Shown one piece after another: positions 60,968-64,000 of a stretch of 64,000 nucleotides of DNA (its first letter is position 1; every line of letters begins with the position of its first letter). The position numbers and the translations under genes were made by a program. The DNA is from Trinickia terrae (GTDB lineage: Bacteria > Pseudomonadota > Gammaproteobacteria > Burkholderiales > Burkholderiaceae). The notes under the pieces are model-generated. The model searched no databases, was not told the origin of the DNA, and saw nothing but the letters and a program-made list of their open reading frames with translations. The stretch is from contig NZ_SWJE01000015.1 of assembly GCF_005144415.1 (NCBI RefSeq), positions 186,001 through 250,000 of the forward strand, in the 5' to 3' direction.

Positions 60968-61206
60968 GGGATGCCTCCTTTAAACAGGGGTTCGAGATAG
61001 GGCGGATGGGCGCTGTCGCGAGAGACGGAGTGTGACACCGCGTGTGGCACATCGTGGCCCGTTCGGCGAGCGCGACGGTGAGCCAACCGAGTGTATCACC
61101 GCATGCCGCGCGGCGATGACTGGTATATCCGGAACCATCGAGCGGTCGCGGCGGGCCAGGCGCAAGACGAACGGGAGGTCGCCGTGATGGCGTAAGCGAG
61201 GGGCGC

Positions 61207-61899
61207 TTACGCGTTGACTGCATCGCTTGGCAGGCCCTCGAGACGACCCAGCGATGTCGGATTGCTCCACAAACCTCCCAGGTAGTCGAACCGCGTTTGT
61301 TCTTTGACATGTTGCAGATAGCGGTGCAGCCAAAGCGGCAATTGCACCTCGGGCACGAGATAGAGCGCCCACAGGTGGGCGGCGACCACGATGTCGACGA
61401 TCGTCAGTTTGCTGCTCTCGTGCGAGCGTCCCGCCAGGATGGGCCGGAGTTCGGCAAAGAACCGCGGCAAGGCGGCGCGGTACGGGTCGCGGTTCGCGAG
61501 GATCTCGGCGAGCGAGCCTCGCTTCTTGCGCTGCTTGTCGAGAAAATAGCGCCGGGCCGAGTCGCTGAATTCCGGAAGCATCACCCAATAGGGAATGACA
61601 AGCGGGTGTATCGCATCGCCGAGCCGCTGCGCAAGCAGCACGGCGCCGGGCAGTTCGGGGCTGTCGCTGCAAAGCGAATTCGCGGGATCGACGGCCTGGA
61701 TGATCGACAGGCTCTCGTTCAGCGAGCGTCCGTCGGGCAGGGTCAAGATCGGCAGCATTTTGACGCCGGTAAGCGCCTCGGGCGTCGCACGATCGTCGTA
61801 GCCTACGATGATCGACGTGTGCTCGATGTGGAGGTAGCCGAGCGCCATCCTCACGCGGATGCAGTAAGGGCAGTGCTGAAAGTGGTAGAGCGTGTGCAT
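61207..61899 (-). CDS. grxB: Glutaredoxin 2
   Basis: 230 aa from the ATG at 61899 (an upstream TTG gives an extra, unlikely MNRRLA). The active-site CPYC sits in LYHFQHCPYCIRVRMALGYL near the N-terminus. The PILTLPDGRSLNESLSIIQAVD segment and helical C-terminal half are GST-like, as in E. coli GrxB. It reduces protein disulfides with glutathione. The next gene upstream (APH-like kinase) ends only 28 bp away on the same strand, so it may share a transcript with the kinase and RuBisCO-like genes. Confidence 0.9.
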   Translation of the reverse strand: MHTLYHFQHCPYCIRVRMALGYLHIEHTSIIVGYDDRATPEALTGVKMLPILTLPDGRSLNESLSIIQAVDPANSLCSDSPELPGAVLLAQRLGDAIHPLVIPYWVMLPEFSDSARRYFLDKQRKKRGSLAEILANRDPYRAALPRFFAELRPILAGRSHESSKLTIVDIVVAAHLWALYLVPEVQLPLWLHRYLQHVKEQTRFDYLGGLWSNPTSLGRLEGLPSDAVNA

Positions 61900-61927
61900 G
61901 GCGAGTCTTCGATTCAATGCCGGGTGT

Positions 61928-62959
61928 TCAAAGACAGCATGGCTGATACCTCAAAATCCGCAGCGCTGCCTTCAGGTAGTTGCTCATGGCGGCGCAAAGT
62001 TTTTCCTGCGCTGCTTCGCTCCCGAAGTTGTGCAGCTTGCCGGTGACATGACAGGCCGCGTAGAGGAAGAACCAGAGTCCGGCATTCCGGTCGCGGAACG
62101 CCGTCGCGTGTTGCGCGAGCGACGTGCGTACCAAATCGCGCAGACTTGACCAGAGTAGCCCGGCCTCGCTAGCGGTAGGCGCACTGCCCGGGTTCTTTTC
62201 CATTTCATAGCAATGCGCCACACAATCGATCCAGTGGTACAGGCGGCTCAGGTCGTAGACATAGTCGCCCGGGCTGCGGCCCGAGCCGCCGAGCGGATCG
62301 ATCGCCACGATTTCCAGCGCGTCTTGCGCGGACGAATCGACGATGAAGTTGCCTGCTTGCGCATCACCGTGGATATGGCGCGCGGCAATACGCTCGGGCT
62401 CTATGGCGGCGCCAAGCGCGTCGAGCAGCGCGTCGATCGCGGCGCGATGGCGCAGCGTGACCGGTGTGGCGGCGAGCCGGTAGCGCCGGCGAATCTTGTC
62501 GAGCCAAAGCGCCGGGTCGCGCTCGATGGACTCGGTCGGCGTGGGTTCGCCCGTGAAGAACAGCGCCAGCAAGCCGAGCGTGCGGCGCACGGCTTCGATC
62601 TTGTCACCGGTTTCATATCGGCTGCTCACCAGAAAATCGTGCAGCGATACGCCCGGAATTTTTTCGATGACCGCGAGCCCAAGGTCCTGTTCGAAGTCAG
62701 TGCACGTGACGCCGTAGATGTGGGCAAACTTGCGCTGCAAATGCGGCGGCAGCGCTTCAAGGTAATGCTGCTGCGCGCACAGCTCCCGATACCCGCCGAT
62801 CTTCACGACCACTTCGCAGGTCAGCGCCTGGCTGAACGTCGTGCAGCGCAGGCCGCCTGTGAGCGCGGTCTGACTGGCTATCTTGAATGCCGAAAACGGT
62901 ATCGACATCCCCTGAGTGGGTGGTCCGTTACGAGGGATGGTGTCGTGCTGGACTGTCAT
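61928..62959 (-). CDS. APH-fold phosphotransferase (kinase-like)
   Basis: 343 aa. The aminoglycoside-phosphotransferase/choline-kinase fold: N-lobe CEVVVKIGGYRELCAQQHYLEAL with a candidate ATP Lys, Brenner motif HIHGDAQAGNFIVD (catalytic Asp and Asn) and the metal-binding Asp in AIDPLGGSGRSPGDYVYDLSRL, then a helical C-terminus. It should phosphorylate a small hydroxylated metabolite. It begins about 35 bp after the RuBisCO-like gene, so the two probably act in one pathway. The start at 62959 has a weak site; the Met of MSIPFSAFK is an alternative. Confidence 0.82.
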   Translation of the reverse strand: MTVQHDTIPRNGPPTQGMSIPFSAFKIASQTALTGGLRCTTFSQALTCEVVVKIGGYRELCAQQHYLEALPPHLQRKFAHIYGVTCTDFEQDLGLAVIEKIPGVSLHDFLVSSRYETGDKIEAVRRTLGLLALFFTGEPTPTESIERDPALWLDKIRRRYRLAATPVTLRHRAAIDALLDALGAAIEPERIAARHIHGDAQAGNFIVDSSAQDALEIVAIDPLGGSGRSPGDYVYDLSRLYHWIDCVAHCYEMEKNPGSAPTASEAGLLWSSLRDLVRTSLAQHATAFRDRNAGLWFFLYAACHVTGKLHNFGSEAAQEKLCAAMSNYLKAALRILRYQPCCL

Positions 62960-62993
62960 GCTCGCTTGCCGCTCGTTGCCGAAACCGTTTCGA

Positions 62994-64000
62994 CTACAGG
63001 TTTTGCCGCTCGCCGTCGTTTGGACTCTGCTTGTCGAACTTGCCGAAGAACGACACAGCGGTGCGCAGGTAGTCGCGCTCCGACTCGCTGGCACGCGCCG
63101 CGAGGCTGCGGTGCTCGAGCACCGCTTGGACGGACTCGCGCATCGCCGCCGCGCCGGCCCGCGTGCCATGCGGATGGCCGTGAACACCACCGCCCGCGAA
63201 GATGACCACCTGTGTGCCGAGTGCATCGGTGAGCGGCGCGGTGGTGAGCGGGTCCAGCCCCGCACCGCAGATCGGCGCGACTGCCTTCGCGCCGAAGAAC
63301 GGCTGCGGCAGGCTGCCCTCGGCCGGGTTCGACGGCGCATACTCCGGCTCGCGCATCGCGCGGCATACGTCGAGCACCGCGTTTCTGTTCGCGCTCATCA
63401 CGCCGAGCGCCGGCGTGCCCGTGTGCACCTGATCGCCGCCGATCAAACGGAAGAGCTTCGCCCAGACCATATAGTCGATGCCGAAATCGGCAGGGCGGTG
63501 CAGCGCGGCGAACAAGGTCCGATGTCCGTGGATGATGAGGCCGAGGTCGGCGAAGCGCAGCGCATGCAGCAGGCTGCAGCCCGCGATCACATAGTCGACC
63601 ATCACCGCTTCGCCTCCGTTCGCGCGCACGAACTCCGCGCGCCGCAGCGCTTCGAAAAAATTCGAGTGCGTGACATTCGGCACATAGATCTTGCGGCGGC
63701 CGGTCAGCGATTCGGCGCGCTGTTTCATCGCCAGAGTCTTTTCGACGCGTCGGTAGAAATCGGAATCCACCGCGCTTTGGCTGGTGCAGGCTTCGTCGTC
63801 CTTGACCATGTCGACGCCGTCGCAGCTGGCCGGCGCTTCGCCGATCCACGCGTCGTAGGCGACGCGCGCATGTTCGTCGGCGGAGAGCCCGCATTTGGGC
63901 TTGATGATCGCGCCGATGACCGGCTGATTTGCACCAATGCCGAGTGCCTTCCAGATGCCGCCGGCGCCGAACGCAGGACCGGGGAACGCGCGCGCCAGCG
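62994..64000 (-). CDS. RuBisCO-like protein, C-terminal ~334 residues (5' end outside window)
   Basis: The frame stays open to the window edge and the start lies beyond 64000. The sequence aligns best by eye with form II RuBisCO: FPGPAFGAGGIWKALG, then AIIKPKCGLSADEHARVAYDAWIG (both Lys of KPK kept), GVDMVKDDEACTSQ (carbamylatable Lys and the Asp/Glu metal ligands kept), GHRTLFAAL, GGDQVHTGT (His kept) and AGGGVHGHPHG (phosphate site kept). Loop 6, GFGKMEGE in form II, reads ALGVMSAN, so the catalytic Lys is Val. The Ser of ISGGM is Cys (PICGAGL). Carboxylase activity is therefore unlikely; a related enolase or isomerase step on a phosphorylated sugar derivative is plausible. Next gene: an APH-fold kinase. 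Confidence 0.85.
   Translation of the reverse strand, partial: LARAFPGPAFGAGGIWKALGIGANQPVIGAIIKPKCGLSADEHARVAYDAWIGEAPASCDGVDMVKDDEACTSQSAVDSDFYRRVEKTLAMKQRAESLTGRRKIYVPNVTHSNFFEALRRAEFVRANGGEAVMVDYVIAGCSLLHALRFADLGLIIHGHRTLFAALHRPADFGIDYMVWAKLFRLIGGDQVHTGTPALGVMSANRNAVLDVCRAMREPEYAPSNPAEGSLPQPFFGAKAVAPICGAGLDPLTTAPLTDALGTQVVIFAGGGVHGHPHGTRAGAAAMRESVQAVLEHRSLAARASESERDYLRTAVSFFGKFDKQSPNDGERQNL

Follow-up and report, generated by a model that had tools for sequence, protein, structure and literature searches.

A RuBisCO-family protein that lacks the loop-6 lysine and may act as a kinase-coupled enolase or isomerase in a three-gene cassette

The locus described here raises the question of what a RuBisCO-family protein does when its loop-6 lysine is missing and a kinase gene lies beside it, and whether such a protein belongs with the true RuBisCOs or with the RuBisCO-like proteins (RLPs) of Form IV. 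The stretch of DNA that we analysed (the window; 64,000 nucleotides, G000:C7:186001-250000) ends in a minus-strand open reading frame, P0001, which is the last in the window and continues beyond its end. On extending the contig past position 64000, as a preliminary description of this DNA had proposed, we found the frame complete on contig C7 (L002:4995-6377:-), its end lying at 64376 in window-equivalent coordinates, 376 bases outside the window, and encoding 460 amino acids from the ATG chosen as its start; an in-frame GTG upstream would give an alternative of 470 amino acids. Both Pfam domains of the family scored over their cut-offs (RuBisCO_large, 195.7 bits versus 30.1; RuBisCO_large_N, 93.1 bits versus 20.7), confirming the family assignment that had been made from the part of the gene inside the window. 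A profile search of the 7.24-Mb genome returned P0001 as its sole PF00016 gene and found no second RuBisCO-family gene besides it. In the literature searched, whose coverage leaves out most subscription journals, we recognised no publication that describes P0001. As for the window as a whole, its kin are Burkholderiaceae: 56 plasmid records match 23.9 kb of it, and 28 of the 56 are from Burkholderia, Caballeronia or Paraburkholderia. The positions of the features discussed below are collected in Table 1.

Table 1. Positions of the cassette, its genes and the active-site codons of P0001 in the window
Feature	Position in the window	Strand	Basis
Three-gene cassette of 3.56 kb, portion inside the window; it extends to 64665 (window-equivalent)	61102..64000		Same-genus comparison
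Glutaredoxin-2/GST-like protein, 230 aa	61207..61899	-	Profile searches; CPYC motif by eye
APH-fold (PF01636) kinase, 343 aa	61928..62959	-	Pfam; HGDxxxGN and IDP motifs by eye
P0001, residues 127-460 of 460	62994..64000	-	ORF and Pfam
Gly395-397 codons, phosphate-binding GGG	63186..63194	-	Alignment; computed by hand
Gly371 codon at the Ser379 position, preceded by Cys370	63264..63266	-	Alignment; computed by hand
Val326 codon at the loop-6 Lys334 position	63399..63401	-	Alignment; computed by hand
Lys192 codon (K201, the carbamate lysine), in MVKDDE	63801..63803	-	Alignment; computed by hand from the gene start

The active-site columns of P0001 were aligned to the Form III RuBisCO of T. kodakarensis and to 66 other rows of the superfamily, residues being counted in an alignment of 58 of the 78 locus proteins with nine PDB chains and P0001; for the 19 classical active-site positions we use what we take to be the spinach numbering. 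At an overall identity of 41% to the T. kodakarensis enzyme, P0001 keeps 15 of the 19 residues (E60, T65, W66, N123, K175, K177, K201, D203, E204, H294, R295, H327, G381, G403 and G404), among them those for enolization and metal binding as well as the four of the N-terminal domain, E60, T65, W66 and N123. Its MVKDDE motif supplies the metal site, with K192, D194 and E195 at K201, D203 and E204, and its GGG aligns with the phosphate-binding glycines, both as the preliminary description had read them. The four changed positions are K334, L335, S379 and G380, which have become Val326, Met327, Gly371 and Ala372, respectively, although a Met at the L335 position is also found in all four Form II and two of the four Form III rows. 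Loop 6 thus reads HTGTPALGVMSA in P0001 versus HVGTAGAGKLEG in the T. kodakarensis enzyme. The valine at the place of the loop-6 lysine had been recognised before, with the caveat that the lysine might sit at a shifted position; lysines occur within residues 300-400 at 307 and 364 only, so P0001 has no shifted loop-6 lysine. The serine-to-cysteine change that had also been proposed was a misreading by one residue, Cys370 preceding the glycine that occupies the Ser379 position.

Keeping 15 of 19 residues is not in itself distinctive, as 8 of the 11 OiaX-like rows listed also keep 15 or, with two others, 13-14, with a different set of residues. The combination of K177, R295 and H327 without K334, on the other hand, was found in no row of the alignment other than P0001; in the five viral rows, K177 and H327 are accompanied by a lysine at 295. 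Judged by its residues, the phosphate site P1, which we take to comprise T54, W55, G373, G396 and G397, appears intact, and P2, presumably formed by R286 and H318, appears mostly so. Since R295 and H327 are kept in P0001 and are missing from MtnW-like and IV-Photo rows, its substrate probably extends to the second phosphate site; binding of a bisphosphate, S379 being lost, is uncertain.

We then compared position 334 across the superfamily. It is a lysine in all 35 Form I-III rows (27/27 Form I, 4/4 Form II and 4/4 Form III), where P0001 has Val326, as well as in 11/11 OiaX-like and 2/2 L062-like rows, and the lysine is missing in 4/4 MtnW-like rows, in 7/7 of their 'deep' relatives, in 2/2 IV-Photo rows, in the single L020 row and in 5/5 viral rows. 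OiaX acts on CO2, by decarboxylation, and MtnW is an enolase. From these counts, K334 would mostly go with CO2 chemistry, be it carboxylation or decarboxylation and transcarboxylation. The tie is not tight, because the L062-like rows keep the lysine and are known as neither carboxylases nor decarboxylases, and because 'OiaX-like' says no more than which model is closest; L018, the single row tested, scored 447 of 700 bits. An excerpt of PMC5437159 states that the loop-6 lysine is thought to position CO2, passages of PMC11839469 report very low fitness for substitutions of K329 in R. rubrum RuBisCO, the same residue as K334, and a portion of PMC6302742 mentions reports of decarboxylation and transcarboxylation by RLPs of the OiaX kind. 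The L062 and L067 proteins themselves, from Lachnotalea and Christensenella, are RLPs that stand beside MtnW in our trees and lack K177, R295, H327 and S379 while keeping the loop-6 lysine.

The lack of this lysine argues against CO2/O2 chemistry in P0001, and both Val326 and the row counts at K334 support the preliminary description on this point. That P0001 acts on CO2 after all, as an atypical carboxylase or decarboxylase with some other group in the place of the lysine, would agree with the retention of the RuBP-binding and enolization residues, including K177, R295 and H327, and with the presence of an arginine a few residues past Val326. However, residues 308 to 363 contain no lysine, Ser379 and Gly380 are lost too, and a profile search of the genome for phosphoribulokinase (PRK, PF00485), whose control was positive in 11 of 14 genomes, gave no match, which makes RuBP formation by PRK, and hence a Calvin cycle, unlikely and leaves no known PRK route to RuBP; we therefore hold a CO2-dependent activity to be quite improbable.

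Profile scores, trees and a structure model all bear on the family placement of P0001. Among its six NCBIfam matches the best was rubisco_III (TIGR03326, an equivalog model) at 369.3 bits, under the cut-off of 497.45; on the same model the comparison rows scored 418 (Form I), 242 (Form II), 246 (OiaX-like), 216-260 (six MtnW-side rows) and 111 (the divergent L020), the eight Form IV-side rows thus covering 111-260 bits. Four maximum-likelihood trees, of 52, 36, 39 and 38 rows, were built from the 78 locus proteins, seven to nine PDB chains and P0001, with near-duplicates omitted and, in some sets, also Form II, L020, viral rows or 2QYG. Their Form III rows came from PDB alignments only, two of the four (8DHT and 6HUN) being without the N-terminal domain, and the Form IV groups that we take to be called GOS, AMC and others were without labelled rows in them. 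In all four trees P0001 grouped with the true RuBisCOs of Forms I, II and III (100/95; 100/97 without Form II rows; 99/94; 98/93), that is, with bootstrap values of 98-100, on a long branch of 1.1-1.5 changes per column. Form II came out as its sister in three of them (96/84, 95/84 and 94/84), a pairing that the program flagged as long branches meeting, and we claim no Form II kinship; without Form II rows, P0001 was sister to Forms III plus I (100/97).

The check in a RuBisCO/RLP tree that had been called for was completed with AU tests, for which we give raw p values per test. Placement within the OiaX-like rows was rejected in three sets (0.0101, 0.0226 and 0.0145), as was placement with the four MtnW rows (0.00013) or with the IV-Photo pair 1YKW and 2QYG (0.00111). 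Joining P0001 to the root of the whole of Form IV was not rejected, being only 4.4 and 4.0 log-likelihood units worse than the best tree (0.082 and 0.081), nor, in one set, was a grouping with 2QYG and the OiaX-like rows (0.085), and a grouping with the MtnW-plus-deep rows gave 0.032 in one set and 0.097 in the other. These values, together with the length of the branch, would suit a reading of P0001 as a deep Form IV branch, basal either to every known RLP group or to the MtnW side, with a function that is still enolase-like. We consider this somewhat unlikely, as the free trees set P0001 with the true RuBisCOs four times out of four, as the placements inside the known groups named above are rejected, and as P0001 exceeds all eight Form IV-side rows scored on the rubisco_III model. 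Structure comparison also stands against it. An AlphaFold2 model was made for the 334 residues inside the window (pLDDT 80.6, pTM 0.84; 69-70 pLDDT in the loop 6 blocks) from an alignment whose sequences, apart from that of the window itself, were all from the RLP side; despite this, the best Foldseek match of the barrel was the T. kodakarensis Form III RuBisCO (TM 0.85 by query length, 37% identity, 321 columns), and the best 50 of 1730 matches (E up to 10) were all RuBisCOs, with no RLP among the matches listed. Thus, the best-supported place of P0001, judging from these comparisons, would be on the RuBisCO side, with Forms I-III. The label 'RuBisCO-like protein' given to it earlier is right as to the fold, but in the sense of Form IV it is doubtful because of this placement.

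No close relative of P0001 emerged from an exact-peptide scan of 84,980 genome species, from which records near the source genome may be absent: 82 stretches matched, and the 11 that encode relatives are all 27-30% identical to P0001 and fall on the MtnW side of the tree. As the scan needs an exact match of eight residues, a relative at about 60% identity could escape it. Likewise, 1,455 whole-genome look-ups in overlapping samples (family, 398 at E 1e-3; order, 300 at 1e-55; class, 369 at 1e-54; phylum, 388 at 1e-57), with the best 4-5 candidates scored per genome, gave no close relative; the best other matches, at 31-37% identity and at most 181-194 bits, were Form I-like or OiaX-like, and the order and phylum limits would hide relatives weaker than these. 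Plasmids yielded 357 records, all under 60% identity, the 30 listed being at 30-33%. In viral contigs one search gave no match to P0001 and the other gave five loci, 27-28% identical. These five (L079-L083, IMG/VR) carry RuBisCO-superfamily genes with Tyr at the loop-6 lysine and Gly at E60 in 5/5, and the two that were put in a tree sat on a very long branch. Seven rows (L057-L061, L063 and L065, from Aerophobetes and unclassified bacteria) form a group beside MtnW with 100/100 support, keep E60, N123 and K177 and have Ser or Thr at K334; they are possibly an unassigned RLP group.

The surroundings of P0001 were examined by comparing the DNA of L002:1-12000 with the two other same-genus genomes of the set analysed (G001 and G002) and with two family members. 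The comparison delimited a cassette at L002 3103-6666 that holds P0001, the kinase gene and a glutaredoxin-2-like gene. On both sides its flanks are 81-88% identical to both same-genus genomes, but the cassette itself was not found at the syntenic site in either of the two, where other genes occupy 3.8 kb in G002 and 15.7 kb in G001. Its GC content is 62.9% versus 68.4% and 66.0% in the flanks, and third-position GC is 0.82 in P0001, 0.76 in the kinase gene and 0.80 in the glutaredoxin-like gene versus 0.86-0.92 in three flanking genes; the cassette is foreign-looking. At its right edge (L002:6667-6808, window-equivalent 64666-64807) lie the short 5' and 3' ends of a gene, named by eye as 3-hydroxyisobutyrate-dehydrogenase-like, whose middle is gone and which is whole in G001, so the block with P0001 stands where that cluster was. 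Catabolic clusters seem to be exchanged at this site. Different gene sets occupy it in G001 (L093, G001:C41:13000-30500) and G002 (L092, G002:C1:1142500-1147600), those of G001 including, by names given by eye, an ABC uptake system, a MocR-type regulator, an aldehyde dehydrogenase, a CoA ligase and an MFS protein. Within the cassette we found no dehydrogenase, aldolase, phosphatase, transporter or regulator gene, and promoter-like sites (2 versus 1.0 expected) and terminator-like sites (2 versus 3.5 expected) are at chance level. Short matches to the kinase gene elsewhere in G001 (34 bp, E 2e-4) and in G021 (66 bp, E 5e-5) were taken as chance.

The kinase gene follows the P0001 stop by 34 bp on the same strand, in line with the preliminary description, which had named an APH-fold kinase as the next gene. 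Its PF01636 score is marginal (24.9 bits versus a cut-off of 23.2), nothing in NCBIfam exceeds a cut-off (the sole match up to E 5 is NF008738, at 11.2 of 194 bits), no MtnK model of NCBIfam matches, Pfam giving PF01636 only, and no PDB match is meaningful. From its sequence the kinase appears to resemble no characterised kinase in the searches run, and it diverges too far to allow a guess at its substrate. A homologue was found in none of 60 other relatives, on no plasmid and, weakly, in one of 330 other genomes of the class (E 1.4e-4). The third gene, which the preliminary description did not include, begins 28 bp after the kinase gene; the GrxB models TIGR02182 and NF007702 gave it 119.2 and 126 bits, under their cut-offs of 186.65 and 133, the second narrowly, and homologues occur in 5 of 40 other genomes, weakly (E 2e-7 to 5e-4) and none in the same family. 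The main evidence that these genes work together is that all three are rarely found elsewhere and lie in a single insertion, and the previously proposed kinase-RLP unit thereby gains a third member and the outline of a block missing from the syntenic site of both same-genus genomes. The linkage rests on one insertion, since no second cassette is known.

An orphan gene on a long branch, with K334 and S379 lost, with insertions of seven, two and one residues relative to Form III RuBisCO (180-186, 203-204 and about 241) and at a site where a gene next to it has decayed, might also be a RuBisCO in decay, or a pseudoenzyme that serves in binding or regulation. We find this unlikely in view of the intact frame with its third-position GC of 0.82, the retention of 15 of the 19 active-site residues at an overall identity of 41%, and the two intact co-directional partner genes.

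The reading that we prefer, to which we give a probability of about one half, is that P0001 is no carboxylase and serves in a small catabolic or salvage module as a kinase-coupled enolase or isomerase of a phosphorylated ketose. Its basis is the residue pattern, the order of the genes, the cassette and the absence of PRK matches and of second RuBisCO-family matches in the genome. The APH-fold kinase would phosphorylate a small polyol, ketose or acid-sugar metabolite, and P0001, presumably dimeric, with Mg2+ bound and Lys192 carbamylated, would bind the kinase product through its P1 site and most of its P2 site. It would then take the proton next to the ketone to give an enediol, which may be reprotonated, as in an isomerase or enolase, or may lose a group, for instance by elimination of phosphate; the enediol would not be carboxylated, because loop 6 is without its lysine and Ser379 and Gly380 are gone. 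Loop-6 mutants of RuBisCO enolize and eliminate phosphate without carboxylation. The glutaredoxin-like protein may handle a thiol or redox step.

The apparent novelty of this locus is that a protein grouping best with the RuBisCOs has lost its gas-handling residues and lies in an orphan cassette. We tentatively propose, at somewhat less than even odds, that non-carboxylating RuBisCOs arose a second time, independently, in P0001. On this view, P0001 is a bacterial protein that descends from the lineage of Forms I/II/III, outside Form IV; it would have lost the loop-6 lysine, kept the residues for RuBP binding and enolization and joined a new kinase in a mobile pathway of three genes that acts on a phosphorylated sugar. 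Excerpts of PMC5575542 and PMC12663927 indicate that the literature tells the history of the superfamily both ways, with RuBisCO arising from enolase-like RLPs or RLPs from Form III RuBisCO. If our proposal is true, P0001 would be a natural 'half-reaction' enzyme in which enolization can be studied apart from carboxylation, a carboxylase would be convertible to another function outside Form IV, and the cassette would suggest that a bacterium of the Burkholderiaceae has a sugar-phosphate pathway not described so far.

Compared with known systems, P0001 is most usefully set beside the T. kodakarensis Form III RuBisCO (PDB 1GEH, 3A12 and 3A13), with which it shares the two domains and the metal and enolization residues. 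It differs in having Val for that enzyme's loop-6 Lys322, Gly-Ala for the Ser379-Gly380 pair and seven extra residues before the KDDE strand, and in coming from a bacterium, whose genome gave no PRK match. An APH-type kinase next to an RLP had been said to match no combination that could be named with confidence, which was too strong. A portion of PMC6302742 places MtnK, a kinase related to choline kinase, in one pathway with the RLP MtnW in the methionine salvage of Bacillus, and on a Haloterrigena salifodinae plasmid (L078:3010-5668) an archaeal OiaX-like RLP gene is directly followed by an annotated four-carbon acid sugar kinase. An APH-type kinase with an RLP thus appears to be precedented by MtnK-MtnW, and an acid-sugar kinase with an OiaX-like RLP by the annotation of L078. 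These same precedents speak for a known kinase-RLP pathway in disguise, either methionine salvage by MtnK-MtnW or acid-sugar catabolism by OiaX, but we hold this to be highly improbable for P0001, which scores 144.1 bits on the OiaX model (NF042437, cut-off 700) and 107.3 bits on the MtnW model (TIGR03332, cut-off 513.6), below NCBIfam membership in both, and whose partner kinase has no MtnK model match. Like OiaX, the 3-oxo-isoapionate-4-phosphate decarboxylase (PDB 3NWR), and its relatives, which have the RuBisCO fold, occur in Burkholderiaceae and may adjoin a kinase, P0001 has K201, D203, E204, H294, R295 and H327, common to 11/11 OiaX-like rows; those rows, however, keep K334 and S379 and lack K177 and W66 (11/11), and P0001 shows the reverse. 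MtnW, the 2,3-diketo-5-methylthiopentyl-1-phosphate enolase, is likewise without the loop-6 lysine and has a kinase of related fold in its pathway, but MtnW-like rows lack R295, H327, K177, E60 and N123 (4/4), all of which P0001 keeps, and the cassette has no other salvage genes. Finally, 1YKW and 2QYG, which we take to be Form IV-Photo RLPs, resemble P0001 in having no loop-6 lysine and a Gly at the Ser379 position, yet they keep 9 of the 19 active-site residues versus 15 in P0001.
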